Below, one piece after another: positions 545 through 21,803 of a DNA stretch of 64,000 bases. Position numbers and translations under genes: made by a program. Numbering within the stretch: the first letter of the stretch is position 1; each line of letters starts with the position of its first letter. Source of the stretch: Buxus sempervirens (lineage: Eukaryota; Streptophyta; Magnoliopsida; Buxales; Buxaceae); NCBI GenBank assembly GCA_947561395.2, contig OX387186.1, forward strand, positions 7,491,888-7,555,887, written 5' to 3'. The notes beneath the pieces were generated by a model. The model made no database searches. It was not told the DNA's origin and was given only the letters and a program-made list of their open reading frames with translations.

Positions 545-1286
545 TGTGCGCACCTAAACCTGGCCTAGATCGCACACCGGGCGCACCTTCGGTGCGTGCC
601 TCGGAACTTTCGGAGTCGCCACTGCCTGAGAGTGCAGGCAGACACGGTTTTGCCCTAATCGGGTCTAAGTCTGGTCTGCGGCTTATTAGAGATCTAGCTA
701 AGTTCTCGGTTACGTCCGGGGAAGCCTTAAGACACCCCGGCCCGCCCCGTCGGTTTGACGGGTCCCTCGGGTCTCCCTGGTTTTTGAGTCAATTTCACCC
801 TTTTCCTAGACCAGCATGCTGACTTGTAAGGTCTGGCGGGGCCCGCTGGAGGTGTGGGTCCCTTTTTATTTGATTTTATCTTTTTATTTATTTAAGTGAT
901 GTGGGTCGGACCCGGGTCCCGTTGGAAGACCCGTGGGTTGCCATGGTTGGGCTTTAGGCCCAGTAGGGTTATTGGGTAACCCTTTTTTGGTTATTTATTA
1001 AATTAAACCATTTACACATGCAATGGGCTTAGTGGGCTTGGATTTGGCCCATTAGCCAAAGGTCAAGTGGCCCGGGCCTGTTTATTGAAAACAGGCTTGG
1101 TATGGGCTAGTCTAAGATGGACCCCACAAGTGGGCCCAGGGTGGTCTTGGTGGGCCCATCTGGGCCCATGGTCCAAAAGTGGGCTAAAGATAGCCCAAAT
1201 TGTTAAAGGAGTGATTCAGGCCGGTTTAGGCCGGAATTGATCCAACCAGGCCGAGAAATTACATTTTTTAAGTTATATTCACATTG

Positions 1287-1390
1287 GCCCGTATTTGCTA
1301 TACGGTCCACCGTCGCCCGTGAATGGAACCCGGTTGGCCTTGCCCGTGAAGTAAACACGGTCCACTGCGGACCGTTCTGAGTTTACGGGC
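1287..1390. repeat. GCCCGT-type 21-bp dyads, cluster 1 (solo LTR)
   Basis: Four imperfect two-fold symmetric motifs of the form GCCCGT-N9-ACGGKC, at 1287-1307, 1315-1335, 1342-1362 and 1370-1390. Half-sites are partly degenerate; the last begins GACCGT. Confidence 0.75.
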
Positions 1391-2174
1391 GTGGCCTATT
1401 CTGCATGTTTGCTACCGAATTTTGCTTGAGATCCATTCCGGTGTGTTTCTTGGATGTTCTGGCGACCTCTGTGATGGTCCTGGTGCTTTCTGTCACAGCA
1501 TATTTGATCCACTTGCTTCCTCAAGTCCTCCTTTAGGGGTGTTCTAGAATGGAATTAAATTCCATTCCTTTTAGACCATGGCATCTTCTAGTAATGCAGG
1601 AAAAGAAGTGGTAATTCGGGGGGGATTACATGGAAGGATTCAAAGAGGACAACTCATTCTTTGAATATAAGCAAAATCCACTTTATGCCATTTTGGATGT
1701 TTTCTATGTCTTTTATGGAATTACTCTTCTTCCCATGGATTCCCACCTTATGTGAGAACTCTCAAGACATGCCAAAACACAATAAACAAGTTAGACATAC
1801 AACTAGCATATGAGAAGGGAAACAAAAAAGATTAGAAGAAATTCCCAAAATTAGCTTATTTGAACATAATATAACTAGAATACTTACAGTGTCACTTTTT
1901 ACTTACTTTGATGATTTCAGCAGCGCTTCCGCGTCCTCCAAGGTTTGCTGGGACGAAATGGGAAGAGCTTGGTTAAGGTGGATGGATTTAAAAAAAATTG
2001 AAGGGGATTTGGGCATGGTTTTGGGGTAGTTTAGGAGTATAGGGGTAATTTGGGCATTAAAACGATTTATGGTGGAGTGGTGGCATGACGGCAAGGTTTG
2101 GTCGAGGCTAGCAGGAGAGGGAGAGGGAGGAGAGGCCAGGGAGAAAGCTTGTCCAAATGAGGGGGGTGGCCTCT

Positions 2175-2183
2175 CTATTTATA
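2175..2183 (-). promoter_or_regulatory. TATA box of the solo LTR
   Basis: TATAAATAG on the minus strand, followed by GAGAGGCC. The complete Tat-like LTRs carry the same TATAAATAGAG core (5830-5838; 19944-19952). In LTR orientation the dyad cluster at 2198-2412 lies immediately upstream. Confidence 0.6.
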
Positions 2184-2197
2184 GGCAAAATTTTCGT

Positions 2198-2412
2198 GCC
2201 CGTATTTGAAGTACGGGCGTGCCTTGCCCGTACTTCAAGTACGGGCGTGCCTTGCCCGTAATTCAAATACGGGCGAAAAACGAATATTTGCAATTATCGC
2301 AGATTCTTCCGTACGGGACGCGTGTCCCGCCGTACAGCGACGCGTGTTTCCTTCTAGAAGCGTGCCCGTATTTCAAATACGGGCATACCCTGCCCGTAAT
2401 ACAAATACGGTC
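2198..2412. repeat. GCCCGT-type 21-bp dyads, cluster 2 (solo LTR promoter)
   Basis: Five dyads GCCCGT-N9-ACGGGC at 2198-2218, 2226-2246, 2254-2274, 2364-2384 and 2392-2412; the last half-site ends ACGGTC. A further palindromic stretch rich in CGTACGGG/CCCGCCGTAC lies at about 2309-2334. Spacing of adjacent dyads is 28 bp, close to 2.7 helical turns. Confidence 0.85.
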
Positions 2413-2980
2413 CAGCACATTTAAAAAATATTTGGATTTCAAACCTTTATTCAATTTGATTTATTGCAAGATTCTTATCCGATTTTTCCGATTATTTTAT
2501 TAAAAAGCGAGATTCTCTTTATTAAAAAATTATTAAACACTTTTATCTTATTTATTTTACTGGTTTAGCCCATTTTTGCTGCCTTTTTGCCACATGGGCA
2601 GTTTTTTATGAAACTTCAACTGCTTATAACTTCTTCGTCTGGTGTCCGATTTCAGCAAACTTAGTGTCGTTGGAATCAGCTTGGAACCACCTATCCATTG
2701 GGATTAAGTTTGGTAGTCGAATTGGGGTCGAGCAAAAAGTAAACTTTTTGCTCCCCAAAAGTTTGACCAGCTCATATCTTTTTCATCTGGACTCCGATTC
2801 CAGCAAACTCAATTGCGTTGGAATCGTGTCGAAATGCTCTTTTTAATGAGATGAAGTTTGATGGCCAAATTCTCTTAAATTAAAAAGTCAATTTTTGACC
2901 CCCTCAGGGTTTGACTGAAAGTTTGACTTTTCATTTTCTTTGCCATTTTAGGGGTGCAAAAATCAGGTGTCTACAGTAGT

Positions 2981-3630
2981 TGTGAGGACTTGTAACTTGG
3001 CTTGTGAGGACTTGTAACAGGGGTTGTGAGGACTTGTAACAGGGGTTGTGAGGACTTGTAACTTGGCTTGTGAGGACTTGTAACAGGGGTTGTGAGGACT
3101 TGTAACTTGGGTTGTGTGGACTTGTAACTGGGGTTGTGAGGACTTGTAACTTGGCTTGTGAGGACTTGTAACAGGGCTTGTGAGGACTTGTAACAGGCTT
3201 GTGAGGACTTGTAACTGGGGTTGTGACGACTTGTAACCGGGCTTGAGAGGACTTGTAACAGGGGTTGTGAGGACTTGTAACTGGGGTTGTGAGGACTTGT
3301 AACAGTAGTTGTGAGGAATTGTAACTTGGCTTGTGAGGACTTGTAACAGGGGTTCTGAGGACTTGTAACTTGGATTGTGTGGACTTGTAACAGGGGTTGT
3401 GAGGACTTGTAACAGTAGTTGTGAGGACTTGTAACTTGGCTTGTGAGGACTTGTAACAGGGGTTGTGAGGACTTGTAATAGGGGTTGTGAGGACTTGTAA
3501 CTTGGGTTGTGTGGACTTGTAACTGGGGTTGTGAGGACTTGTAACTTGGCTTGTGAGGACTTGTAACAGGGGTTGTGAGGACTTGTAACTGGGGTTGTGA
3601 GGACTTGTAACAGGGGTTGTGAGGACTTAT
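2981..3630. repeat. 22-bp minisatellite, left arm inner part
   Basis: About 30 units of 22 bp (GAGGACTTGTAAC then AGGGGTTGT, TTGGCTTGT, TGGGGTTGT or AGTAGTTGT). The variants alternate rather than forming homogeneous blocks. Confidence 0.92.
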
Positions 3631-3649
3631 ACATCTATTGCATTGTTAC

Positions 3650-4440
3650 AAGTCCTCACAACCACTGTTACAAGTCCTCACAACCCCAGTTACAAGTCCA
3701 CACAACCCAAGTTACAAGTCCTCACAACCCCTGTTACAAGTCCTCACAAGCCAAGTTACAAGTCCTCACAACTACTGTTACAAGTCCTTACAACCCCAGT
3801 TACAAGTCCTCACAACCCCTGTTACAAGTCCTCACAACCCCTGTTACAAGTCCTCTCAAGCCCGGTTACAAGTCTTCACAACCCCAGTTACAAGTCCTCA
3901 CAAGCCTGTTACAAGTCCTCACAAGCCCTGTTACAAGTCCTCACAAGCCAAGTTACAAGTCCTCACAACCACTGTTACAAGTCCTCACAACCCCAGTTAC
4001 AAGTGCACACAACCCAAGTTACAAGTCCTCACAACCCCTGTTACAGGTCCTCACAAGCCAAGTTACTAGTCCTCACAACTACTGTTACAAGTCCTCACAA
4101 CCCCTGTTACAAGTCCTCACAACCCCTGTTACAAGTCCTCTCAAGCCCGGTTACAAGTCCTCACAACCCCAGTTACAAGTCCTCACAACCCCTGTTACAA
4201 GTCCTCTCAAGCCCAGTTACAAGTCCTCACAACCCCAGTTACAAGTCCTCACAACCCCTGTTACAAGTCCTCACAACCCCTGTTACAAGTCCTCTCAAGC
4301 CAAGTTACAAGTCCTCACAACCCCAGTTACAAGTCCACACAACCCAAGTTACAAGTCCTCACAACCCCTGTTACAAGTCCTCACAACCACTGTTACAAGT
4401 CCTCACTACCCCTGTTACAAGTCCTCACAACCCCTGTTAC
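3650..4440. repeat. 22-bp minisatellite, right arm (inverted)
   Basis: About 36 units of the same 22-bp repeat in reverse orientation (GTTACAAGTCCTCACAACCC). Since 22 is not a multiple of three, all three frames stay open over long distances and encode a 22-residue repeat. These long ORFs follow from the repeat and are not evidence of a protein. Confidence 0.92.
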
Positions 4441-5203: not shown

Positions 5204-5361
5204 GGGCTGACATCGTCGACCGCTCCTTTCTACAGCTGAGACTACCGCTGTAGACACCCCAAATTGCACCCCAATATAAGAGATTAACTAAGAAGGGCTC
5301 CAAAGGTCTTATTTGAGCCTTGAAATGTGTCAAACTTTCAAAAACAATCAAAATCAGTGCC

Positions 5362-5628
5362 AACCGCACTGTGTATGCGGTTTTTATAATCTCGGTTTCA
5401 ACCGCTCTGTATGTGCGGTTGCAACCGCACACACAGCACGGTTCACATCAAGGCTTGTTGCGCTGGCGGCCACGTGGCTTCGCGAAGCTTCGGCCGTTAA
5501 GCCGCGTGGACAGCACTCAATTAAAGCATAACTGAATTGAACTGCCCTGTATATGCGGTTTGGTCAAATTTGTACATAAACCGCACTTTAAGCGACGGTT
5601 GTGTAGAAACCGCACTGTGTATACGGTT
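5362..5628. repeat. AACCG-N11-CGGTT dyads in the left LTR (six copies)
   Basis: Copies at 5362-5382, 5400-5420, 5423-5443, 5540-5560 (first half AACTG), 5579-5600 (one base longer) and 5608-5628. The ten outer bases are conserved while the 11-base core varies. All lie 200-470 bp upstream of the TATA box. Confidence 0.88.
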
Positions 5629-5829
5629 TTGGCTGTTTCGAGGCTTTGCGAAATGGCTCGATCTCTGAGCCTTATTTACGCATATTACCTCTCTCTCAAG
5701 GACCTAAACTCCCTATTTCACCCTCCGAAACTTGCTGAATTACTCCAATTCAAGCCTTAGAGGAGAATTGGAATAATCTAGAAGGCCTTTTTGGCCTACC
5801 CTTGGGACTCTTCTACCCTTGACTTGGCC

Positions 5830-5838
5830 TATAAATAG
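5830..5838 (+). promoter_or_regulatory. TATA box of the left LTR
   Basis: TATAAATAG in the context GGCCTATAAATAGAGGGG, a strong plant TATA match repeated in the right LTR at 19944-19952. It is the probable sense promoter of the retrotransposon, so R would start about 30 bp downstream. Confidence 0.7.
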
Positions 5839-7672
5839 AGGGGTCCTCCTCTTGCAAATGGCTGACAATCTGAAGCTTAGAAGCTCTGCAAGAAGAAGGA
5901 GAACCTCTGCTGGATTGGCTACTCAACTGCTCAAGCTACTAAGGTAAGGACTATTTGAGTTATTGCTTCCTCTTTACATTCTAGCAAATCTCTCATCTTC
6001 TACCTTTCTGTAGTGTAAGGCCTTTGTGTATTTTTGCAACCCCAAACCCCTTCTAAAGTACCTGGGAATCCTCTCTAGCCGTAAAACGTGAAGAGAGAGC
6101 CTGGGGAAAAGGAAGGTGGAATGGATCCTCTAGGTTTAGAACCCTCAGATGATGTGCAAGCATGCTCTATGGTTATTTTGAGCCCTTGAATGCTTCTCTG
6201 ATCATTTTTGTATTTGGAGAAGATGTGAATCCATGCTCTCAATAGCCATGGATTCCAACTTTCTCATAGAAATGTGATTTTCCACATCTTTGCACCCACT
6301 TTCCACTTTTTTTTTTATCAAAATAGGCTAGATCTTGGATTTCCATGTAAATATGGAAAATCTGAGATCATTGGCCTTAGAATGAGTTTTTAGAAGTTCA
6401 TGAGTTGTTTTTCATGATTTTAAATGGTTTTGGTCGAATCCACTTGCACACATACACTAATTTTGGCTTCTCATTCAAAGTTCTTCAAAAACAGGACAGA
6501 TCTGTAGCCTGTCTTGGAATGCTCATAACTTCATCCTCCAGATGAATTTTTGAGTGATTCCAAAGACATGTGATAGATTGGAAGGTCTATTTAATATCTG
6601 GAAATTTTCGTCCACTTCCATGTAGCCAATTTTTGACACCATCTCTTCAAAGTTTGTAAGACAGTTCAGCCCAGATTGCTGAACTTGCCGCTTTGATGGT
6701 GCACTATTTGCTCAGTTTTAATCCGTTTCCTATGATTCCAGTTTCTGAGTTTTCTTTGAGAAGTCTATTTTCATTTCCAATTGGTTTCAGCAGATTTCAA
6801 TCTGTTTTGTGCCTTGGGTGTTCAATTGACTCAGAGGTGCTCGCTGGCATAGTCCAGAGCTCATCTGTGGTCTTTTAGGCCTGTTCAAGAGAGCACACAA
6901 GTCACATCCGGATAGAGATTGGTGTGAGGTTTTTTTTCTTTGGAAAGATGGCACTACATACTTCCTCCATACCAATTTTCATGTTTTTTTATTGAGCCAA
7001 ACTCCACGAATAGAGCTTTGAAAATGCCTACTTAACACTTTTTCTGAGTTATAACAGCAGATTTCATATGTGGATTTCTCTCTCGTTTTGGATCGGATTG
7101 AGCTGAATTTTCTACTGTATACTCTACTACTATACCAGTTTTCCAATGGCTTTGGTTTCATTTGATTTGGATTTGAATTGGGAAAGTTATGGTTTATCAA
7201 AGTTTTCAAGTTCTTTTGACCTATTTTCTCCAGATTTGCCTTAGCTGGATTTTCTTCATTTTTTACCTTGATTTCACTTCACTCATGAGGTTTTAGAAGT
7301 GATGAATCCACAAAGAGAGCCTAAGTTCATTAGACTTCTCATGTGGAATGATCACATACATGGTGCTTGTGGTAAGCATCCTTTTGCCCATTTTGTTAGA
7401 AAAATGATTCTAAAGTATAAGCAAGCATGTGGTAACCGTCTTAGACGGATGAGTGGGGGTGCCTAACACCTTCCTCCGCTCATAAATAATTCCCCGTACC
7501 CAATCTCTGGATTTTCCTTGTATTAGAGCTACTTTGGCTCTATTTGACATCTATGAACCCTTTGGTGTCCATTCACACCTTAAAATGGATGGTGGCGACT
7601 CTTTACATTTCATCGATCCCCGCGTGACGGTAATCGGAAGTCATCCGAGATGACGAATCCATGTCTCACAAC

Positions 7673-7690
7673 TGGCGACTCTGCTGGGGA
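7673..7690 (+). other. Primer-binding site
   Basis: TGGCGACTCTGCTGGGGA begins two bases after the left LTR. It starts with TGG, complementary to a tRNA CCA end. PBS sequences of this kind (reported as tRNA-Arg-like) are typical of Tat/Ogre retrotransposons; the tRNA match was not tested here. Confidence 0.75.
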
Positions 7691-9280
7691 TACTAGGAAT
7701 TGAGCCATGTCTTTGGCTTGCTTATTCTTTGTTTGATTTGATTGATTGTTTGTTGATTGGAGTGATTGTAATAAGCATGCTGATTTGAATGCTTCTATAG
7801 TTAGAGAATGTGAGACCTTAGGAAATAGGGCATGAGATGTGTGGTGCTTTGTTTATGCTCAAAGCCATGTTAGGAGACCTAGCTAGTTTTACCATGCTAG
7901 GCTACCATGTTTATATGACGAGCATGTTTTGATTAGGATTCTAATGTCATTGAGCATGTGATCAGGATTTTTAGGGAGATATTTTGAATATGTCAAAAGC
8001 ATGCTCACCATAATTGAATACTATTTGTTGTATGATATGATAACATGCCTCCATGTTTGCATGATTGTGTGAATGCATATTTAGATGGAGCATGCTAGGC
8101 TTTCTTTTATTTAATTGAATGTTCCCATGTTTATTAGCTTCAAAATGATCTCTATATCATGCCTTGGTGTGTATGGCTTGCATGGCTGCGAAAAAAGAGT
8201 GGCAAGGGTGGGACGTTGTGTTGAATGTGACCAACTTTTTCAAATGCACTTGTGCACCTTTTTTCTTTTTTACACAGCCTACCTATCACCTATAGGAAGT
8301 TGAACAAGAATGTGGGTAGCTTGGCGCACCGAGGTCGTTACTTCGGAAAGCGAAAGTGAAAACATTCACCTTAGAGACTTTGAGCCAATGATGTGATGAC
8401 ATGGTGGATCTAGAATTCTGGTCATACACTAGGCTTGAGCTCTAAGTTGCCAATAAGCCAAAACCCAAAACCCCTACGCGAAGGTGGAGAAACACAATTT
8501 TGGCCAAAATAAACCAAATGCGATGGGGAAGGGTTTGTAATGAGGGAAGGCCGTCTTGCATGGCTCAGGTGACCCAAGGTATGATATGGATACCATCTTG
8601 AAGATAAACATGGGGTAACAAGGTATTTTCAAAATTTTCCCTTGTAATAACCTCCATACTTTATAAGAAGCAAGGTTATAGTGTCCATTTGTTGGGATTT
8701 TGTTTTTCCCAGAAAATTACTGTTAGCCTAAGATTGGTGTAGCCCTTAGAGAGAGTTTTTACTCTTCTTAGGTGTCATTCTACCCAAATGCCCATAGGAG
8801 GCACCCAAAAGTCCCAAAATCCATGCATTAGGTGTCCATTTTTAGGAGGGAGCCTAGGCCCTCCTTTGTATGAATATGGCTAATCCTCTTTCTTGCAGGG
8901 AATTTGTGTGTGAAGGCCATCCAAGAGCTGCTGGTGCAAGGAGCCTCTTCTTTTTTCTTTTGTGTAGAAATTTTCATTCTCTAGCCCAAGGAGGCTAAAA
9001 TTGTCATTTTTATTTTGATTCATGCCCTTGAAGGCCAATTTGTATTGTAACATGTTTCTTTTATTATAAGAGATCTGTTTGTGCGCATTTATGGTCTCCG
9101 CATGCACCTTCATGAAATTCATGGTCTAAAGCGGGCTTTTAATGCCATTTGATGCGTCAAATGCCCAATTTGGGGCAGTCTGGGAGCCACCCAATGGTGA
9201 ACAATGTGTTTGGGCATTTAACTAAGATAATAAAACCAATTGGAAAAATGAACAAATCGAAAATCTCATTTTCGGCTGGA
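7691..9280 (+). other. Leader region of the Tat-like element, no gene seen
   Basis: About 1.6 kb after the PBS with only short ORFs and no protein I recognise. Tat/Ogre elements often have a long leader or an extra ORF before gag; no such ORF is intact here. Confidence 0.5.
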
Positions 9281-9367
9281 AACCGTCCTGAGCATGCGGT
9301 TGTCTGCATTTTCGCTGCAACCGCATGTATCATACGGTTTGAGCCAAACCGTCCTGAGTGTGCGGTT
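9281..9367. repeat. AACCG-type dyads, internal cluster (three copies)
   Basis: 21-bp dyads at 9281-9301, 9319-9339 and 9347-9367, two with AACCGTCCTGAG as left half. No TATA box is evident nearby, unlike the LTR cluster. Confidence 0.85.
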
Positions 9368-10090
9368 TTAAGCCGAAATCCCATTCTGGCCATGCTAATT
9401 AAACATTTCTGGGTCCTTTCATCCCTAAGTTATATAAGCAAGTGTGCAGTGACTCCAAATAAGATAAATGGCATTTAAACCATTCCAAATCCACCCGGAT
9501 CAAGAGATTAAGGTCATTTTGAACATATTCACCTAAATTGAGCAAATTAATCCAACTCAAAGGTGAAAATGATGAAATAAAAGTTGGCTCAAACCAAAAA
9601 TCAGGTCAAGCACCAAATTTTGGGGTTTAAGCTCATGTTAGGCTCTTTTTACCTAATTTGAACACCTAACCCATCTTAATTGAAGTAAATGATTAAAAGA
9701 AAATTGGTTCAAATAACCAACCGAATCATACTTCAACCTCAAGAATTAAACTTGGAAATCACAATAAGCTTCCAAAGCATCTTTTAAGCCTAAAGTGGGA
9801 TCTGAACCAAGAGTAAAAGGAAAAGAAGCTCAACTCTTTTAAAATGGAGCAAATTCCAACCAAAAATAAGAAATCTTTAATCATAAAGTATTCAAACTTT
9901 TAAGATTTCAACTCATGGGGTCACTGAGAAACCTCTGAATTCCAAGCAAGTGATCAATTAAGGATTCAATGAAAAAAAATTTTCAAATAAATCACCACCT
10001 TAAAGATAAATTGAGTCTCTTTTTAACTCAAAATACCTAAGGCTGGAAATCAAAAAATTTTTTAGGCATCTGAAAGCCTTGGAATTTCAG
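9368..10090. other. Internal spacer of the Tat-like element
   Basis: A-rich sequence without a recognisable gene or repeat, between the dyad cluster and the 78-bp tandem array. Confidence 0.4.
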
Positions 10091-10099
10091 AAAATCAAT

Positions 10100-10815
10100 T
10101 CATAGGACTCCTGGAAGCCTGAAATTCCAGACTTTTTTAAAATCTTCATAGGCCTTCTAAAGCCTGAATTTAGAAACTCATAGGACTCCTGGAAGCCTGA
10201 AATTCCAGACTTTTTTAAAATCTTTATAGGCCTTCTAAAGCCTGAATTTAGAAACTCATAGGACTCCTGGAAGCCTGAAATTCCAGACTTTTTTAAAATC
10301 TTCATAGGCCTTCTAAAGCCTGAATTTAGAAACTCATAGGACTCCTGGAAGCCTGAAATTCCAGACTTTTTTTAAAATCTTCATAGGCCTTCTAAAGCCT
10401 GAATTTAGAAACTCATAGGACTCCTGGAAGCCTGAAATTCCAGACTTTTTTAAAATCTTCATAGGCCTTCTAAAGCCTGAATTTAGAAACTCATAGGACT
10501 CCTGGAAGCCTGAAATTCCAGAATTTGTCAAAATCTTCATAGGCCTTCTAAAGCCTGAATTTAGAAACTCATAGGACTCCTGGAAGCCTGAAATTCCAGA
10601 CTTTTTCAAAATCTTCATAGGCCTTCTAAAGCCTGAATTTAGAAACTCATAGGACTCCTGGAAGCCTGAAATTCCAGACTTTTTCAAAATCTGCATAGGC
10701 CTTCTAAAGCCTGAATTTAGAAACTCATAGAACCCTGGGAGCCTGAAATTCCAGAATTTGTCAAAATCTTCATAGGCCTTCTAAAGCCTGAATTTAGAAA
10801 ATCATAGGCCCCTGA
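10100..10815. repeat. 78-bp tandem array (about nine copies)
   Basis: A 78-bp unit (one copy 79) repeats about nine times. Each unit consists of two related ~39-bp halves, one with CATAGGACTCCTGGAAGCCT and one with CATAGGCCTTCTAAAGCCT. Since 78 is a multiple of three, one minus-strand frame stays open with a 26-residue repeat; this is probably incidental. Internal tandem arrays are common in Tat/Ogre elements. Confidence 0.92.
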
Positions 10816-11384
10816 AAGCCTGCGTAATTTCGGGAGGTTGTGGAAGCCTTAATTCCAAAGCATAAGCCCTTGGAAGCTTGCGTAATTCCAAGTCTCGAGT
10901 TTGTCTAAGGATTTTTACTTTGGACATCTCATTTGTGTGGGATGTGTTGGAAGCCCTAGAATTTTCCAATATTGGTGGGTCTTTTTCGCACCAACCAATT
11001 CGTAAGCCCTTGGAAGCTTGTGTAATTCCAATGCTTGATTTGACTATGGGCTTTTACCATAGCCATATCATTTCTGTGGGACATGTTGGAGGCCCTAGAA
11101 TACTCCAACAAAATTTCTGAGGTTTGATCTTTTTTTCGTATCAATCACCTCGTCTTAATAAGGTTATTTTAACCATAAATACAAAAAATCAAAAAAAAAT
11201 ATGGATACAAAGAAAACCCCAAACTTATGTTCACCAAGCTTACACGCATGCATGCATAGGTGTGTAAAATTGATTCAAGGGGATACTAATATTTTTCTCT
11301 TGTGTCTTTTTCTTTTACCAAGGTACTAAGTTCCTACTGCAACCATTGCTCCCCGACGTTCTCAGAGATTAAAAGCTGCTACCA

Positions 11385-11534
11385 TGAACCCGGCTGAAGA
11401 ACAATCCACTGTTTCGGCTGAGGCCTTTGCTCAACTGCAAGAGCAAGTGGCAGGGATGACCAAACTATTGGAGAATTTGCTGGCCAACCAAGCCGCTCAG
11501 GCTCAGGTACAGTCGCGACTGGGGCAGGGTTAAT
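11385..11534 (+). pseudogene. Remnant of the gag N-terminus
   Basis: A sense ORF begins ATGAACCCGGCTGAAGAA and encodes about 49 residues before TAA. It includes AFAQLQEQVAGMTKLLENLL, a heptad-like coiled coil followed by ANQAAQAQ. Plant Ty3/gypsy gag proteins commonly begin with such a segment. It lies on the sense strand where gag is expected, but no capsid, zinc knuckle or pol follows and the next ~900 bp to the antisense genes lack a long sense ORF. I read it as the stump of a deleted gag-pol. The alternative is a chance coiled-coil ORF. Confidence 0.5.
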
Positions 11535-11916
11535 AGAAAAACAAAAAGGGAAATAGCAAAGAAAGGCCAAAAGAAAAAAAAGAAGAAGACCAATATTGGG
11601 AATGGGGGGTCGCATCCATTATGACTGTAAGCCCAGTTATCCCATTTTAAAGATGTTAAAATTTTGAGCCTATAATAACCTTTTTTTTCATAAACTCAAC
11701 CCAGCCCTCATTTCGTCCTATCGATCAAGTCCTCGGTGATCTGGGTGTATTCCTTCAAGCTCGGGAGGTTGAAAGGGCAATGACGGAATAAATAAGCCGG
11801 TCCTAGTGAAAACCGTAACAGGCACTAGGGGCAATATTGGCAGAAAGAAGGCGAAAGAAAAAAAAAAAAGAAGAAGAAAGAATGAAAGAAAAGAAAGAAA
11901 CAAGGAAAAGGTCACC

Positions 11917-12032
11917 AACCGCACTTGGGATACAGTTTGAACTAAACCGCCCTTTTTCTACGGTTTTGGCAGAAGGGCTATGCAACCGCATATTGAAGAC
12001 GGTTTTGGCTAAACCGTTCTGAATGCGCGGTT
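11917..12032. repeat. AACCG-type dyads, internal cluster (four copies)
   Basis: Dyads at 11917-11937 (second half CAGTT), 11945-11965, 11983-12003 and 12012-12032. They lie between the gag remnant and the 3' end of the two-exon antisense gene. Confidence 0.85.
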
Positions 12033-12473
12033 TTATGCAGCAGAATTGAATTGAGCAGATTTTCTGCACAGGACTGAACCAGTAGGCTGGGGCAGGCCCC
12101 CTGGAAGTGGGAAAGAAACTTGGGGATGAGTCTAAGGGTTCCAAGGGGGACGGATTGGCTTCCTCCTCATTAACTGAAATACCCTTTTTTTGCCCAACTT
12201 ACTTCAATTCATCCAACTATATGGGATTAAAGCATTATGGACCAATTTACAATAAAAACACACAAAAATGAAAATTATATTTTGGCCAATGATGAGAAAT
12301 CAGTGACTTTTCATTAAAACTGTCAGTTTTTACAAGCATATGAGAGTTCTGAGGCCAATATTATAAAAACCTATTTTGTATTCTCTATCTTTCCGCTAGT
12401 GGAGTTTCTCTTTGTACAGGGGTGTAAAAAAAAAAAAGAAAAAAAAATATATATATATATACAATAAAAGGGG

Positions 12474-14128
12474 CTAATCTCTATCCCCTAGCCTTTCCTC
12501 AAGCTCTCTGATCCGAGCCGCCTGAACCGCCACAAGCCTTTCAGCCCCCTCTGCATCTGGGTCACTGAGGAATGAGATGACGTCATCTGAGAGGGTCTGC
12601 CTAGTCTTCATATCTCGGAGCCTGGCCATGGTCTCGTCATGCCTGCGCCATGCAGCTCTCACCTCGAAGCGACGGGCCTGTATCTGCTCAGATAATCGCC
12701 GCTCCAGATCTTCCTTCTCCAATCTCAAGGTTCGGGCCTCCTCCACCCATATGAGCTGAAGCCGCCTATGAGAAGCCCGCTCGGTCTCCAAGAGGTCCTC
12801 ATAGGTAGGACACGGGATAGCAGGAGGATCCGCCGGTATGGAAGCGCAGCTCTGCACCTGCTCTCTAATCCAGAAGATATAGTCCTTCTCATGCAATTTG
12901 GAGAAGACAGAACCTCTCAAGAAGCAGGCCTGCGACCATTCCTTCAATAGGCGGAAGCAGAGGCCCATGGTGGCTGGTGTGAGGGGACCAATGAGTTCTT
13001 CATATCCATGAGGTACCAAAATCCCTTGAGACTCCTCTCCAAACTGCCGGATGACTCTCAAAGGCAAGTAGAGCAAGGCAGACTTCAAGCCCATGAGCAC
13101 AGCGAAGTTTTGGTCAGAGAAGCTGATCACTGTCTCGACGGAGGGCTGGTAAGCACCAGGCCATCTCACCTGGTCGTCCTGAAGAGTCCCCAAGAAAGCA
13201 AACCATCCCTGTTTGCCGCCATGTATATTGGGACACCCCCTGTTGCTCATCAAAACAGGAACGTCCAATCTGGGGAAGAAGCGCCGGGTTATCTCTTCAA
13301 CCTGACTCAGGTGGTCAAGTAACCAGAGCTGCACAAAACAGGGAAGCATTTCCAACCTTAGAAAATTTCAACTTGGCAATAAAGATTACAATTCAAAGAA
13401 AGAGGTTCAGATTTTACCTGAAGTATAGGGGCGCAGGCAAGGAAACTTTTCTGCTTCCTGTGATAGCAGTCAGTCAAGGCCTGGTATATTTCAGCCAGGA
13501 TCATAGGGGCAAGCCTTTCGCACTCCCTAACTTGACAGATGACTGAAATGAGGGATAAATCAACCTCGCTATTACCTCGGGGGAATAAAAGTTGATTGAC
13601 CACTATCAAGGTCAGAGCATTGAACCGGGCCGACTGGTTGGAGCTATTTAACAGCTTCTCAGTCAAGAATGACTTGGATAGGGTCAATAGGGCGTCGGCT
13701 TCCCCTAACTCTTTTTTGTTAATCCCTAAAAAGGTGGAGGCTTCCTTTTTAAAGCTCGGTTTGAGAGGTGGGTTAACTACTTTCTTGGAAAAGCTAAGGT
13801 TGAGGATGGTTTCAACCTCCTCGACTGTAGGGGTCATCTCTTTTTCCCCAAACCTGAAGAGGTTCAATTGAGGCTCCCAATGCCCAATTAGTGCCTCTAT
13901 GATTTCCCATTTTAGAGGAACCTTCGGGATTGAGAGGAGGTGGCCTAGATTGGCAGAGGCCCAATCCATCTCATCTTGAGGGGTCATTGAGGAGACCCAC
14001 CTCTCATAAAATGTATCCACAATGGCATACCTAGTCAAATTAGGAGGTTTGGACCTAATTTTTGGTCTAGGTGCTGGTATTTCAGGTACGGAAGATGAAG
14101 GAGGCACAGAAGCTGAACCAGAAGCCAT
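12474..14128 (-). CDS. Antisense gene A of the Tat-like element: two-exon plant-mobile-domain-like protein
   Basis: Exon 1 is 14128-13418 (237 codons) and exon 2 is 13328-12474 (284 codons plus stop), giving 521 aa. The 89-bp intron is phase 0, with GTAAAATC at the donor and TGTGCAG at the acceptor. Residues ~1-25 are Ser/Pro-rich. A globular part follows with FRFGEKEMTPTVEEVETIL, resembling the 'F.FG..E.TPT.EE' signature of plant-mobile-domain/DUF7745-like proteins found in many plant transposons. From about residue 430 a charged coiled coil runs to the end. No stop or frameshift interrupts it. Dyads at 14260-14377 lie just upstream of its ATG. Function is unknown: it is transposon-borne, and it could be a captured host gene or an accessory element protein. 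Confidence 0.72.
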
Positions 14129-14259
14129 TAATGGGCAAAAGTGGATTAAAGGCAGCTAGGAGAGAGAAAATCGCCGAAAAAGGGGGTTTCTGACCTAAGC
14201 AATACGTCAAAATGACGTCCTGCCCGCAATTCGCGGTTTTAAAATAACCTAAGGGCGAA

Positions 14260-14377
14260 AACCGCATACACAGAACGGTTGTGCCTGAACCGCACTTAAT
14301 ATGCGGTTACATTCCCGCAAAGTTTAAAAACCTCGGGATAAGTGCGGTTCTTGTACAACCGCCTTGAATGTACGGTT
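14260..14377. repeat. AACCG-type dyads upstream of gene A (three copies)
   Basis: Dyads at 14260-14280, 14288-14308 and 14357-14377, plus an extra GTGCGGTT half-site at 14342. They lie 130-250 bp upstream of the gene A start codon and about 230 bp downstream of the gene B stop, so they occupy the presumed gene A promoter. I saw no clear TATA box here. Confidence 0.85.
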
Positions 14378-14607
14378 TTTGCACAAAAAGGGGTTTTAAT
14401 TCTTTCTTTTAATAAGTCATGTTCCCCAGAAAATCTGTTATCTGTATAACAATCGTAACATGACAAACATACAAAAATAAACAAAAAAAATCTACAAAAA
14501 AGAAACAAAACCAAAAAATCTTCTCTTTTCATATAAACTGCCAATGAATACATCAAGTTTATATACAAATGTCAGATAAATCCTAATCTAGACCTATCTC
14601 TAACAGG

Positions 14608-17472
14608 TCAATCCCTATCGCCTCTACCTCGCCGTCGCTGCCGGATGAAAAAGTGATCTGAGAAGCGCTGGCCAGCGGGAGAAGAAGGCTCACTAAGCAA
14701 GGATGGACCAACAGGAGGCACCGGGTCTGCAGGAGGCGCAGGATCGGTAGAAGAGGCTGAGGCCGGAGCTGGATCCTCCTGGGTCAGGTCCATGAAGCAG
14801 GAAACTGAAGTGTCCGTCGCCAAAGGGACCAGCTCTAGAACCCGAGAGTCCTCCGCAGAAGGAGATGGATCTACGGTACCAGCTACGCCGGGAATATCCT
14901 CCTCTCTCGTAGGCTCGGCCGCCTCTGGCTCAGCTACACCAGGAACATCCTCCTCTCTCGCAGGCTCGACCGCCTCATGAACCGCGGGAACCTCCAAGTC
15001 ACCCTCCGCTGGCTCAGGAGCAGTCTCTAGCTCGGATGCAGGAGCGGTCTCAGATACAGGTGCAGCCTCAGGCATCTCGGCTGACTCAGGAACTACACCA
15101 ACAGAGGTAGCCTCGGCCGCCACCTCAGTCTCTCTCTCAGGAATCTCCACAGCTCCTAAAGAGAAGGACCAAGTGCGGGAACTGGATGGTGAAGCCGCCG
15201 CATCCTCCTGGAAGACAAAGACAGACTGATCAGAAACAGGAAAGATAAAGAAAAAAAATATATATACAAGAAACTGAAGAAGACAGACCTGAGCTCCTGA
15301 AGGCCCCGCCTGGCCCTGGGCACTGGCCAACTGGGCCCGCAAGTCGGCAATGAGAGCGGCTTGCCCAGTGATGATGACATCGCTCTCAGCAATGGCGGCG
15401 TCTCTCTCAGCCAGCTGGCGCTCCAGATCCGCATATCGAGCCCGGACCTCCTCTAGCTGTGCCTCCTGAAATAAGATAAGAAGAGAAAAGATATCAGTAA
15501 ATAAGAAAGAAAGACTAGAAGAATTTACAAGAAAGGGAGATTCATACCGTGGTGTCAAAGAGGCGGATCACTACCCCTCCTATCTCAGTAACTCCGCCTC
15601 GAACGGGCATGGGCTGCATCAGACAACCCACTGAGACCTGCCCGAACCAGGTATCATAGTCACCATCGACTAAAAGGCCATCTCCTGCCTCCCACTCGCC
15701 GAAGTGGGCAGGGTCGAATGGACCAGGAGGGATGAAAGGTGCTGTAGCTGGAGGAGCCACTGGGATCCGGGGCTCGCCAGTATGCTGGAAGAAGAAGCGC
15801 TCCCCGAGGTACCATATACTGCCCAACTGCCCGATAAAGAATGGGTACCTCGGGCGTCGCTGATCCAGGGCGAAAGCGGCATCCACAAAAGGCTGAAAAG
15901 CCAACTCGTCATGAAGGCCGTCCAGACGGGGAACAGATAGCTGAGGGTAAACAAAGAAGAATATCAGAATCTGATAAAAAGGAGAAAAGGAAATGAAGAA
16001 AAGAGAGACGGGGAAAGTGCTTACCTCTCTCCTGAAGGTCCTGTCCAGGTGAGCCCTGGCCGACCTAGGGCGACTCTTCTCTGAGTCACGCCTAATCTGA
16101 TGCCACCGACGGGCCAAGGGAAATGTCCCCTCAGACAAGGTGGAGGTAGGGCGAAAGTGGGCCACATAGACCCGAGCAAAGAACTGAAAAAAAAAAAAAG
16201 AAGAGAAGAAAAAAAAAAAAAGAAGAACAAAAGAAAAAAGAAAAAAGAGGTTAAGCAGAAAAAAGAAGAGAGAAAAAGAAAAAAGAAGAGAGAAAAAGAA
16301 AAAAAAAAGAGAGAAAAGAAAGGAAAGGAAGAAGAAAAGAATTTATACCTGCAGAAAGGGCCAGAAAAATCTGCAACCCACTCCGGCTCCCCTGGAAGAG
16401 GACAGGCTGGAAACTACCCGCCGAAGCCCCGCTAGCAAGGTGCCATAAACCAACTGGCCCCAGGCATAGTCCCTCGCTCGGTGCAGATCACGGAGAAGAC
16501 TCAAGAAATGAGGGCTGACTGAAGTAGTATCCTCCAAGCAGAAGCAGGAGCCCATCATCAGAAGAAAAAGAAATCTGAAAGCTATTGGGAAACTGGGATG
16601 CTCCGCTGCTAAGGTACTGAATCCCCTCTCTATAAATGCCTCCCTCAACCATGTCCGGGAAATACGAGTGATCCTGCTCCGATCCCACGCCTCCACGGGC
16701 ATCTCGTCATATCCCAACAGCTCGGCAATCTCCAAGTCTGCTGGCCGATCCATCTCAGTGATGACATCTCCAGTCATCCTGATCCCGGTAATGAGAGCGA
16801 AGTCGGAAGGACGAATACCGATCTCCACATCAGGCAGATGGAAGCTCAGGGTCTCCGGGAAAAAGCGCTCCAACAAAGCTAAGATCAAGGGCCGATCCTG
16901 ACGGACGCCGGTGATGGTAATGAAGGGGCCAAATCCAAAACGGCCCATCTCTCGGCGCAGAGAGGACGAGCAAGCCCCTACTACATCAGCAAAAAGGGCC
17001 CAACTCCCTCGGAAATGGGAAGAAGGATATCTAAGAGGGATGTCTGCCCTAACGCCTGCCGAAGGATGCGTCGTCAAACTGTGAAGAAGAGAGGTGTCCC
17101 GGATCTGATCTGCTATCTCTGCAGGAATGGCGACACGAGTCGCCCGGGCCCCTGCCCTACCTCTACGACGGGCTCCCCTACGCTCACGAACCTCACCAGC
17201 AGGCTAGAAAGGCGAATAAAAAGGGTTTAAGTTGAATGTGATAAAAGAAAGGCCGGATATTAAAAAGGGAAAGGGAATACCTCTGGGATCGACTCCAGCG
17301 AATCCCCAGACGCCCCAGAATCTGAATCTGAAAGCTCCAGACCACTGGGAGAAGAAGGCTCAGGGTCCGGCTCGGCCCTAGAAGAAGATGCCACATCGGC
17401 CGGATCCCTCCGAACCCTCGAAGAGGAAGGCTCATCCGCGGGACCCCGAGAAGCGCGACGTGTACGGGCCAT
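14608..17472 (-). CDS. Antisense gene B of the Tat-like element: six-exon plant-mobile-domain protein
   Basis: Exons on the minus strand are 17472-17281, 17203-16349, 16183-16025, 15940-15548, 15465-15289 and 15207-14608. All have GT-AG borders and all exon lengths are multiples of three, so every intron is phase 0. They join to 791 aa without a stop. Residues 1-64 are a basic, Ser/Pro-rich start. Exon 2 holds a plant mobile domain with LILALLERFFPETLSFHLPD followed by a DFALITGIRMTG-like segment, the PMD hallmark. Exon 5 is a short coiled coil (EAQLEEVRARYADLERQLAE). Exon 6 is Ala/Glu/Pro-rich and disordered. A minus-strand TATA box with three dyads lies about 1.4 kb upstream. Cellular function is unknown; PMD proteins occur both as host genes and as transposon passengers. 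Confidence 0.78.
16190..16345 (-). other. Extreme pyrimidine tract in gene B intron 2
   Basis: The minus strand of this intron is almost only T and C for about 150 bases up to the acceptor TTTTTTCAG at 16184. It may act as a very long polypyrimidine tract. The plus-strand lysine/glutamate-rich ORF across it is a composition artefact. Confidence 0.7.
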
Positions 17473-18900
17473 CTACAGGGACAATTACAGGGAGAAATTT
17501 ATTATGTTTCATTGGAAGTTATTTTATTTGCTTTTCACGTTTCAGTTGATTTTACTATTCTTTAGATTAATCAATTCTACGTGGATTGCAGAAAAAGAAA
17601 ATCGGAAGAGACACTCCAGAAAGTGCCCGGCTGAACCAGGATCTGATTCTTTTTAGCCTCTATCAATTTCTTTATTATTTCTGTTATACATAAGAATTAT
17701 ATATAAGAAACAAAATTTCCTATATATCCTTCTTATAAACAAAAAAGGAGAAAGAAAGAAAGATTTTTGAAACAAGCTATCCAAAATTTTCAATTTTTCT
17801 GATAAGTTTAAATGGCTGTTCTAAAATCCCTAAAGTGTCCAACTTTATTCTACTTTCAGGCTTACTCAAAGCAGGATCACCATAGCAGGAGCTGTCTATA
17901 CCTATACATACTAGAGATGTTGGATGAAGTTTTAAAGCACAAGAACAAATGCTCAAATTTAGTACAGTTGAACACAACGGTTCGACATAACTAAGGCAAG
18001 CCTACAGGTTTTCAATCCAAGAAAAAATCAGGCATTGATTTGCATTGACTACAGATCGGAATAGGCCTAGAAGCATGAATAAGGGTAAATTGCATGCTAA
18101 ATGAGATCGAGTCGGCTAAGAGTTGTTTCAGGCATACAAAAGCATGTTCTTCGTAACAGGGTAAGCATGTCAAGTGTTATGTTGCTGCAGAAAAGAGGTC
18201 CTCAGGTTGATGAAAAGCGAATATTCAACAAAAGGGTAATACTCAAAATTGAACAAACAGAAGTATAGCAATCAAGAAAGAAACAAGCATGGGGAAATAA
18301 GGTTTCAGTTAAAGACAAAGCAGCACAAGCCAAGTTCTAATACAAACTGATTCAAGAAATGGGCAAGTATAAGGTTTGGGGATTTTGTTCGGTCAGAAGC
18401 AAATCTGAAATCAAGAGTTCAGTTCAATCAATAACCAGAGTCAAAATCATGCTGGGAACAAACTCTTTCAAGTAGCAAACACATGCACAGATTTTTGGAT
18501 CAAATATTCTCAAATGTGTTTGGCCACTTACTTGTTCAGGTCGACAAGAGAAGATTGGACAATGTTTGTCTCACCAGAGCTTCGAAAGCAAATAAAATTG
18601 CCACCAACGAGGATGGAAGGAGATCTGAGTGTGGCAGAAATGTGAAAGCGAAGAATCACAGGCGGCAATGAGTGAGCTTTGGATGGAAGACGCCCGTTGC
18701 AACAGTTCGCCGGAGAAAACAGAGTTCACCGGAAAGGGCAGAAACCGCCGGAGAGCAGAGAGTCTTGCCGGAGGAGGTGTCTTCGTCGGAGAAGAAGAGG
18801 GAAGAAGACCGGAGGGAAACCACGGTCGCCAAAGAGAACGCAAGAGTTCGGGGAGTCAAGGGTTTTGCGAGCAAAGTGAAGCCAGTCGCGGTCGCAGTCG
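17473..18900. other. Presumed 5' leader of gene B, no coding sequence
   Basis: This 1.4-kb stretch lies between the gene B start codon and the antisense TATA box. It contains no recognised coding exon. At 18,590-18,900 it is GC-richer with minus-strand CT-rich blocks resembling a plant 5' UTR, so one or more leader introns are plausible. Confidence 0.35.
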
Positions 18901-18902
18901 CG

Positions 18903-18909
18903 TTTATAT
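18903..18909 (-). promoter_or_regulatory. Putative antisense TATA box (gene B promoter)
   Basis: ATATAAA on the minus strand, in GCATATAAACGCG, with GC- and CT-rich leader-like sequence after it. Three dyads (18921-19019) sit directly upstream in the antisense direction, as in the LTR promoters. Confidence 0.5.
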
Positions 18910-18920
18910 GCAACCTAGAA

Positions 18921-19019
18921 AACCGCACACACAGAGCGGTTGATATTAACATTGTTGAAAACCGCACATACAGCACGGTTAAAATTGAAAATGCTAAAAA
19001 CCGCATGTTCAGTACGGTT
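18921..19019. repeat. AACCG-type dyads upstream of the antisense TATA box (three copies)
   Basis: Dyads at 18921-18941, 18960-18980 and 18999-19019, spaced exactly 39 bp apart. The first is only 12 bp from the putative antisense TATA box. Confidence 0.9.
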
Positions 19020-19347
19020 GGCACCCAAAAATGAATTTTCAAAACTTTTTTCAATCTCTCTCAAAGGATCTGTGTCCAGGGCAGTTGTGAATTGCAAGGA
19101 ACACCACCCTATCAACTTTTGCTTTTAAAATTTGCTCAAATCTCACTTCATAGCCACGAGTGCTCTGTGAGAGGCGAGGAGAGGATTTGACCCTTAAGGT
19201 TAGGGACTTTTCATCAAATCCTTTAAACAAATTCTTTTTCAAAAAACCATATTGGAGTTCTTGCAGCTCATAATCGAATGGACATGATCCTGAGGGGTGC
19301 AATTTGCGGGTCTTTTGCTCTCCGCTGTCAATTGATTCCAATCCCAG

Positions 19348-19358
19348 CGAAGAGGGGG
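19348..19358 (+). other. Polypurine tract
   Basis: CGAAGAGGGGG lies a few bases before the right LTR (starts 19363), the expected place for the plus-strand primer of reverse transcription. Confidence 0.7.
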
Positions 19359-19362
19359 CAGT

Positions 19363-21784
19363 TGTAGACACCCCAAATTGCACCCCAATATAAGAGATTA
19401 ACTAAGAAGGGCTCCAAAGGTCTTATTTGAGCCTTGACATGTGTCAAACTTTCAAAAACAATCAAAATCAGTGCCAACCGCACTGTGTATGCAGTCTTTA
19501 TAATCTCGGTTTCAACCGCTCTGTATGTGCGGTTGCAACCGCACACACAGCACGGTTCACATCAAGGCTTGTTGCGCTGGCGGCCACGTGGCTTCGCGAA
19601 GCTTCGGCCGTTAAGCCGCGTGGACAGCACTCAATTAAAGCATAACTGAATTGAACCGCCCTGTATATGCGGTTTGGTCAAATTTGTACATAAACCGCAC
19701 TTTAAGCGACGGTTGTGTAGAAACCGCACTGTGTATACGGTTTTGGCTGTTTCGAGGCTTTGCGAAATGGCTCGATCTCTGAGCCTTATTTACGCATATT
19801 ACCTCTCTCTCAAGGACCTAAACTCCCTATTTCACCCTCCGAAACTTGCTGAATTACTCCAATTCAAGCCTTGGAGGAGAATTGGAATAATCTAGAAGGC
19901 CTTTTTGGCCTACCCTTGGGACTCTTCTACCCTTGACTTGGCCTATAAATAGAGGGGTCCTCCTCTTGCAAATGACTGACAATCTGAAGCTTAGAAGCTC
20001 TGTAAGAAGAAGGAGAACCTCTGCTGGATTGGCTACTCAACTGCTCAAGCTACTAAGGTAAGGACTATTTGAGTTATTGCTTCCTCTTTACATTCTAGCA
20101 AATCTCTCATCTTCTACCTTTCTGTAGTGTAAGGCCTTTGTGTATTTTTGCAACCCCAAACCCCTTCTAAAGTACCTGGGAATCCTCTCTAGCCGTAAAA
20201 CGTGAAGAGAGAGCCTGGGGAAAAGGAAGGTGGAATGGATCCTCTAGGTTTAGAACCCTCAGATGATGTGCAAGCATGCTCTATGGTTATTTTGAGCCCT
20301 TGAATGCTTATCTGATCATTTTTGTATTTGGAGAAGATGTGAATCCATGCTCTCAATAGCCATGGATTCCAACTTTCTCATAGAAATGTGATTTTCCACA
20401 TCTTTGCACCCACTTTCCACTTTTTTTTTTTATCAAAATAGGCTAGATCTTGGATTTCCATGTAAATATGGAAAATCTGAGATCATTGGCCTTAGAATGA
20501 GTTTTTAGAAGTTCATGAGTTGTTTTTCATGATTTTAAATGGTTTTGGTCGAATCCACTTGCACACATACACTAATTTTGGCTTCTCATTCAAAGTTCTT
20601 CAAAAACAGGACAGATCTGTAGCCTGTCTTGGAATGCTCATAACTTCATCCTCCAGATGAATTTTTGAGTGATTTCAAAGACATGTGATAGATTGGAAGG
20701 TCTATTTAATATCTGGAAATTTTCGTCCACTTCCATGTAGCCAATTTTTGACACCATCTCTTCAAAGTTTGTAAGACAGTTCAGCCCAGATTGCTGAACT
20801 TGCCACTTTGATGGTGCACTATTTGCTCAGTTTTAATCCGTTTCCTATGATTCCAGTTTTTGAGTTTTCTTTGAGAAGTCTATTTTCATTTCCAATTGGT
20901 TTCAGCAGATTTCAATCTGTTTTGTGCCTTGGGTGTTCAATTGACTCAGAGGTGCTCGCTAGCATAGTCCAGAGCTCATCTGTGGTCTTTTAGGCCTGTT
21001 CAAGAGAGCACACAAGTCACATCCGGATAGAGATTGGTGTGAGGTTTTTTTTCTTTGGAAAGATGGCACTACATACTTCCTCCATACCAATTTTCATGTT
21101 TTTTTATTGAGCCAAACTCCACGAATAGAGCTTTGAAAATGCCTACTTAACACTTTTTCTGAGTTATAACAGCAGATTTCATATGTGGATTTCTCTCTCG
21201 TTTTGGATCGGATTGAGCTGAATTTTCTACTGTATACTCTACTATATACCAGTTTTCCAATGGCTTTGGTTTCATTTGATTTGGATTTGAATTGGGAAAG
21301 TTATGGTTTATCAAAGTTTTCAAGTTCTTTTGACCTATTTTCTCCAGATTTGCCTTAGCTGGATTTTCTTCATTTTTTACCTTGATTTCACTTCACTCAT
21401 GAGGTTTTAGAAGTGATGAATCCACAAAGAGAGCCTAAGTTCATTAGACTTCTCATGTGGAATGATCACATACATGGTGCTTGTGGTAAGCATCCTTTTG
21501 CCCATTTTGTTAGAAAAATGATTCTAAAGTATAAGCAAGCATGTGGTAACCGTCTTAGACGGATGAGTGGGGGTGCCTAACACCTTCCTCCGCTCATAAA
21601 TAATTCCCCGTACCCAATCTCTGGATTTTCCTTGTATTAGAGCTACTTTGGCTCTATTTGACATCTATGAACCCTTTGGTGTCCATTCACACCTTAAAAT
21701 GGATGGTGGCGACTCTTTACATTTCATCGATCCCCGCGTGACGATAATCGGAAGTCATCCGAGATGACGAATCCATGTCTCACA
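19363..21784 (+). repeat. Right (3') LTR of the Tat-like element
   Basis: A 2,422-bp copy of the left LTR with the same six dyads and TATA box (19944-19952). It is followed by ACCGC, the target duplication. A scan by eye finds about 14 differences from the left LTR, mostly transitions. Confidence 0.93.
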
Positions 21785-21803
21785 ACCGCTCGTATGAAAA
21801 GTC

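Follow-up and report, generated by a model that had tools for sequence, protein, structure and literature searches.

The dyad AACCG-N11-CGGTT forms real, selected and largely promoter-placed arrays of paired half-sites in Buxus sempervirens, and is one of several sister versions carried by related families of long terminal repeat (LTR) retrotransposons. The dyads were analyzed in a 64,000-nucleotide window (contig OX387186.1, positions 7,491,888 to 7,555,887, from the 676.5-Mb, 247-contig assembly GCA_947561395.2), where they occupy a complete 16.5-kb LTR element with LTRs, target-site duplication (TSD) and primer-binding site (PBS). This element also carries two genes for PMD proteins. We propose that dimers of the element's own PMD proteins bind the dyads and thereby activate or de-silence the element, a reading to which we give a probability of about 0.55. 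The proposal that the dyad is a selected two-half-site element held up because its gap is fixed, its half-sites are conserved in diverged copies and its skeleton recurs in related families.

The dyad is far more frequent in the window than expected by chance. All 20 exact matches lie within 5362-19742, compared with a mean of 0.00 (maximum 0) in 100 dinucleotide shuffles. With up to two mismatches we found 41 sites against a shuffled mean of 12.2 (maximum 23), and 25 of the 41 are inside the element. We retained 24 of these 25 (the exact sites plus 5540, 11917, 14329 and 19476); the near match at 18807 is isolated, likely due to chance, and was left out. Two sites with a 12-base gap bring the total to 26, six per LTR and 14 internal (3 + 4 + 4 + 3), in line with the roughly 26 copies, six per LTR and 13-14 internal, of the initial annotation. 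That annotation correctly placed the dyads within one retrotransposon, but its range of 5362-19019 stops short of the 3' LTR copies. Its nearly fixed length of 21 bp was borne out. Among gaps of 0-30 only 11 (20 sites), 12 (5579 and 19693) and 26 (5362 and 19476) occurred in the window, and the gap-26 pairings reuse half-sites of other dyads. The motif is dense in the non-coding parts of the element, and none of its 19 unique copies lies in a PMD exon.

Most of the arrays are close to promoter-like sequence. In the 5' LTR, the U3 array (5362-5628, plus strand) comprises dyads at 5362, 5400, 5423, 5540 (one mismatch), 5579 (N12) and 5608, and the LTR TATA box GCCTATAAATAG (5830-5836, plus strand) follows ~200 bp downstream. 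The corresponding array of the 3' LTR (19476-19742, plus strand) has dyads at 19476 (two mismatches), 19514, 19537, 19654, 19693 (N12) and 19722. A U3 array precedes the GCCTATAAATAG box in three LTR families. The leader array (9281-9367, plus strand) has three dyads in steps of 38 and 28 bp and is followed by TATATAA at 9431. Four dyads at 14260-14377 (minus strand; steps 28, 41, 28) end 132 bp upstream of the PMD gene 2 ATG, beside the AT-rich TATTTTAAAA at ~14246-14237 (minus strand). Three dyads at 18921-19019 (minus strand; steps 39, 39) stand 12 bp ahead of TATAAAC (18902-18908, minus strand), the putative TATA box of PMD gene 1; as the ATG of this gene lies 1.4 kb further on, its use of this promoter is something we infer. 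The remaining array, of four dyads (11917-12032, plus strand; steps 28, 39, 28), has no TATA box within 120 bp on either side.

We searched the whole assembly for the dyad and compared other copies of the element. AACCG-N11-CGGTT occurs at 19,195 sites, versus 1,691 for the reversed-pattern control. For gaps 0-10 taken together, the 4,773 sites (~434 per gap) fall below the control of 8,862. A frequency no higher than chance, or absence from other copies of the family, had been named in advance as evidence against the proposal; neither was found. For the comparisons we retrieved 20 regions of ~10 kb each around the first listed AACCG-N11-CGGTT sites, a motif-based choice that biases the results drawn from them. 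One region contains a second copy of the element (L023), ~80% identical and with both PMD genes. Ahead of PMD gene 2 it has a four-dyad array with identical steps (28, 41, 28), and the array ahead of its PMD gene 1 is short by one entire 39-bp unit. Across ten LTR copies, with the window element represented by one of its two LTRs, mean U3 identity is 91.5% in the half-sites, 75.1% in the core and 73.8% in the flanks. None of 182 shifted masks reached 91.5%; the nearest, shifted by one base, gave 90.6%. The two PMD upstream arrays of the window and L023 show a weaker contrast, with 56/60 identical positions in half-sites, 53/66 in the core and 295/345 in the flanks. CpG retention in U3 (102/119 in half-sites, 75/100 elsewhere) was too weak to be of use.

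The conservation of the ten outer bases was upheld, but the core does not vary freely, as had been supposed. We oriented 19 unique copies by expectation maximization, excluding the N12 site and the duplicates in the 3' LTR and using 19654 instead of its mutated partner 5540. Eleven lie in plus and eight in minus orientation, and the consensus is directional, AACCG-Y-N-CTG-W-R-Y-R-T-R-CGGTT. The 11 core positions hold 10.7 bits, part of which descent of the copies from one another could account for, versus 2.9 ± 0.29 bits (maximum 3.8) in 200 core shuffles oriented in the same way. This rules out a random core.

Related families carry arrays that are built on the same skeleton. We scanned the loci blindly for clustered dyads (0-1 hits in block shuffles, two per locus), discarding the plain tandem repeats that this also caught, and scanned for the skeleton as well. 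The two scans recovered TATCCGG-N9-CCGGATA in arrays of four copies with steps of 38-39 bp and, with steps of 27-28 bp, two to four consecutive (A/C)CCGT-N9-ACGG(T/G) dyads. Common to these and the AACCG dyad is CCG-N11-CGG. Across the window and the loci from L005 on, CCG-Nx-CGG has 216 occurrences at x = 11 versus 9-58 at each other x from 3 to 25. Of the 126 successive CCG-N11-CGG sites 17-130 bp apart, 87 are spaced by 28 (37), 38 (9) or 39 bp (41); 23 bp occurs six times. As many loci belong to the same families, neither set of counts represents independent events. Genome-wide, CCG-N11-CGG-N11-CCG has 28,546 forward and 28,631 reverse occurrences, whereas the reversed pattern has 2,450 and 2,651. 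Among 20 LTR starts TGTAGACACC with 900 bp following in the loci and window, 19 have at least two sites inside those 900 bp, with the reservation that all loci but L031 and the window were motif-chosen and that a second, nested LTR accounts for the sites in a few.

Eleven skeleton sites lie in the window beyond the element, nine of them in the two arrays of a sister-family solo LTR (545-2975, minus strand; start TGTAGACACCTGA at 2975; TSD GTAGT at 540-544 and 2976-2980). Its U3 array (2200-2410, minus strand), just upstream of GCCTATAAATAG, has five CCCGT-N9-ACGG(G/T) dyads, three in one run and two in another, with 28-bp steps; its second array (1289-1388, minus strand) has four CCG-N11-CGG dyads in steps of 28, 27 and 28 bp. 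On contig 1, a degenerate DUF7745/PMD gene lies between two 28-bp array sets ~7 kb apart (L005), an arrangement that may reflect a third family equipped with a PMD gene.

Both PMD genes of the window element are open, under selection and antisense to the LTR element. PMD gene 1 (PF10536; 14608-17472, minus strand) has six exons with GT/AG borders and encodes 791 aa. PMD gene 2 (DUF7745/PMD; 12474-14128, minus strand) has exons 14128-13418 and 13328-12474, again with GT/AG borders, and encodes 521 aa. Compared with L023, dN/dS is 0.18 for gene 1 and 0.13 for gene 2. Protein searches retrieved 2, 1 and 116 relatives (the 116 counting both query proteins), mostly from Nicotiana and Solanum; one of these searches used a 530-aa PMD gene 2 query whose exon border was 27 bases off. 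Searching the PDB by sequence with the PMD alignment returned two chains (E 0.34), neither a PMD relative. A structure model of the PMD protein gave a fold match to VANC21; a VANC-like fold is predicted for the proteins.

The arrangement resembles a known system in DNA transposons. VANC21 binds arrays of YAGTATTAY in the non-coding parts of VANDAL21 (PMC5735166), and VANC6 has a different motif, AGTTGTCC/AGTTGTAC (PMC5735166, PMC10398659). Both there and here, a transposon encodes the protein (in our case with a predicted VANC21-like fold), short motifs are dense in non-coding sequence of the family that the protein comes from, and the motif varies among families. The present carrier, however, is not a Mutator-like element (MULE) but an LTR retrotransposon with PMD genes, LTRs, PBS and a 5-bp TSD, and the same-orientation arraying of VANC-type modules is not seen.

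PMD proteins are also known from hosts and from other retrotransposons. In Arabidopsis, MAIN, MAIL1 and PP7L are required for expression of genes with the short DOWN promoter motif (PMC7156037, PMC9899485). This motif occurs in 12.46% of all genes, is not enriched in pp7l-2 alone (PMC7156037) and, as CATGCAGTTT, is present in MORC1 (PMC9899485). CATGCAGTTT agrees with the half-site consensus at 8 of 10 letters, and with copy 18999 at 9 of 10. Against motif positions 13-22 it scores 11.1 bits, a value reached by 51 of 20,000 shuffles and by 23 of 20,000 window 10-mers, and the right half of each dyad copy has 1-4 mismatches to it over 10 positions. The DOWN system differs in acting on host genes, and in the accessible text its papers leave direct DOWN binding open and do not mention dyad arrays (PMC7156037, PMC9899485). 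PMD domains occur in 57% of Ogre elements, and OTA elements mostly have extra open reading frames (ORFs) and large non-coding regions (PMC6317226). Our element likewise has PMD genes as extra ORFs, but no pol was found in it, and dyad arrays go unmentioned for Ogre in the accessible text (PMC6317226). The PMD-A1/A2 clades are encoded by Gypsy elements only (PMC5418596). Among the papers listed by our literature searches none deals with such a dyad; the letters AACCG and CGGTT were sought only in PMC7156037 and occur there zero times each.

Under the reading that we favor, each dyad would be the binding site of a dimer of element-encoded PMD proteins, each half-site contributing a CCG/CGG triplet and the 11-bp gap setting the dimer geometry. 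With a helical repeat of 10.5 bp, the commonest steps (28, 38 and 39 bp) correspond to 240, 223 and 257 degrees, so neighboring dimers would face similar helix angles, which would suit cooperative loading. The two PMD genes and the directional core would fit a heterodimer. Through the clusters in U3 and upstream of the PMD genes, PMD proteins would activate both the LTR promoter and the genes that encode them, or protect these from silencing. By analogy with VANC/VANDAL, trans-acting protein and cis-array would make up a self-contained module. Among the three candidates named in the initial annotation (MYB factors, the PMD proteins and a small-RNA target), the PMD proteins gained the most support. 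The rarer steps of 23 and 41 bp do not fit the helix-angle pattern. Against this reading, sixteen loci of 3.5-7 kb (L025-L040) that cover other PMD ORFs or the sequence ahead of them contain no AACCG dyad, although their LTRs may lie outside; these ORFs had some of the best Pfam scores in a set of 117 scored out of 8,447 candidates. L031 is the only one with a skeleton array, which it owes to an LTR element adjoining its PMD gene. PMD genes are thus not always accompanied by the skeleton nearby. We had considered the TATCCGG array of L031 as the PMD gene's own promoter and dropped this, as comparison with L032 puts it in the neighboring LTR element.

The main rival is binding by a host transcription factor, possibly a host PMD complex of the MAIN/MAIL1/PP7L type. 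In that case the element would have taken over an enhancer grammar of the host, and the PMD proteins that it encodes would act elsewhere. We regard this as possible though distinctly less probable. The half-site likeness to DOWN, the usual enhancer place of the arrays in U3 and the PMD families that lack nearby arrays would all suit it, as would the skeleton common to several LTR families, which a shared host factor would require. The family-specific flanks (AACCG, TATCCGG, CCCGT) at equal U3 position look instead like divergence of cognate pairs, and the element has kept two PMD genes under selection. Since host proteins of this type also silence transposons, the effect on the element may be of either sign. 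MYB factors, known to bind LTR repeats of Tto1, are an unlikely form of host binding and the least probable of all the explanations. CGGTT equals the first five letters of their core, CNGTTR, but the purine required next follows in 14 of 38 half-sites, so the core is not matched, and in the sister arrays CGGTT is replaced by CGGATA or CGGGCA. MYB sites are not known to need an 11-bp palindromic gap.

A protein on the dyads might serve a step other than transcription, such as integration targeting, nuclear import, insulation or nucleosome exclusion. The 11917 array and the solo LTR's second array, neither of which is at an obvious promoter, would suit this, but TATA-like boxes follow the U3 arrays, the 9281 array and both PMD-gene upstream arrays, and we consider it improbable. 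Less probable still are targets of 21-nt small RNAs or RNA stem-loops. The dyad is 21 bp long, and tea PMD genes give rise to 21-nt phased small interfering RNAs (PMC10673657). Positions 6 and 16, however, pair as T-G in nine, C-G in six, C-A in four and T-A in none of 19 copies, so the pair is broken in four without compensation and an RNA stem is not what has been kept. The mixed orientation of the dyads also speaks against an RNA-level signal, and the sister families hold CCG-N11-CGG and the 28/39-bp steps with the rest changed.

We further propose, tentatively and at somewhat less than even odds, that PMD proteins in general are VANC-fold, sequence-specific DNA binders carried with family-specific CCG-N11-CGG arrays as self-activating or anti-silencing modules, that protein and flanks diverge as lock and key, and that the host MAIN/MAIL1-DOWN system is a domesticated descendant. 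If true, anti-silencing by protein plus motif would extend from DNA transposons to LTR retrotransposons, and an origin of the host MAIN/MAIL1 pathway would be suggested. A 2021 review describes PMD as a domain of unknown function and floats the idea that transposon-made PMD proteins counter silencing (PMC8616336). Our analysis makes this idea testable at once by naming a specific candidate target sequence, pointing to a predicted structural relative that is known to bind DNA, and showing how the target differs between families. Jarry and others reportedly have a preprint on PMD protein-DNA motif modules, so any priority here is provisional.

The host element is bounded by the TSD ACCGC (5244-5248 and 21785-21789). 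Its LTRs (5249-7670, beginning TGTAGACACC, and 19363-21784, both plus strand) are 2,422 bp each and differ by 13 substitutions in 2,421 aligned bases (Kimura two-parameter distance 0.0054). The PBS ACTGGCGACTCTGCTGGGGA (7671-7690, plus strand) is presumably of Tat/Ogre type, and we take it and the 5-bp TSD as lineage markers. On the internal plus strand the longest stop-to-stop frame spans 139 aa. Of 22 frames of at least 70 aa, the 10 longest had no Pfam match; short pol remnants are possible. Because no reverse transcriptase, RNase H or integrase of the Tat lineage was found, the element is at most a non-autonomous relative of Ogre/Tat Ty3-gypsy elements.

Additional repeats and genes were noted. 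Many PMD ORFs occur in pairs ~3.4 kb apart (for example, C14:24506346-24510840 and C3:45640023-45644521) and make up a large PMD family, with no dyad in the upstream stretches retrieved. At L041 (C14:24515123-24515240), a second TATCCGG-family array lies ~3.7 kb past the LTR start, upstream of a gag ORF, and recalls the 9281 leader array. L011 (981, 1249) and L013 (545, 1322) each have two different TGTAGACACCCCAAATTGCAC-type LTR starts close together, which looks like nesting; one start of each pair has 27-28-bp CCCGT-type dyads and the other 39-bp TATCCGG dyads. L008 (2424-2549) contains five clustered GGTGC-N9-GCACC dyads in steps of 30-33 bp, a skeleton unlike CCG-N11-CGG. In the window, a long 22-bp tandem array (2973-4440) flanks the sister solo LTR, which appears to be inserted in it. 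The internal region of the element contains a tandem repeat with a ~78-bp unit (10019-10845) and, judged by eye, a putative remnant of the gag N-terminus (11338-11534).
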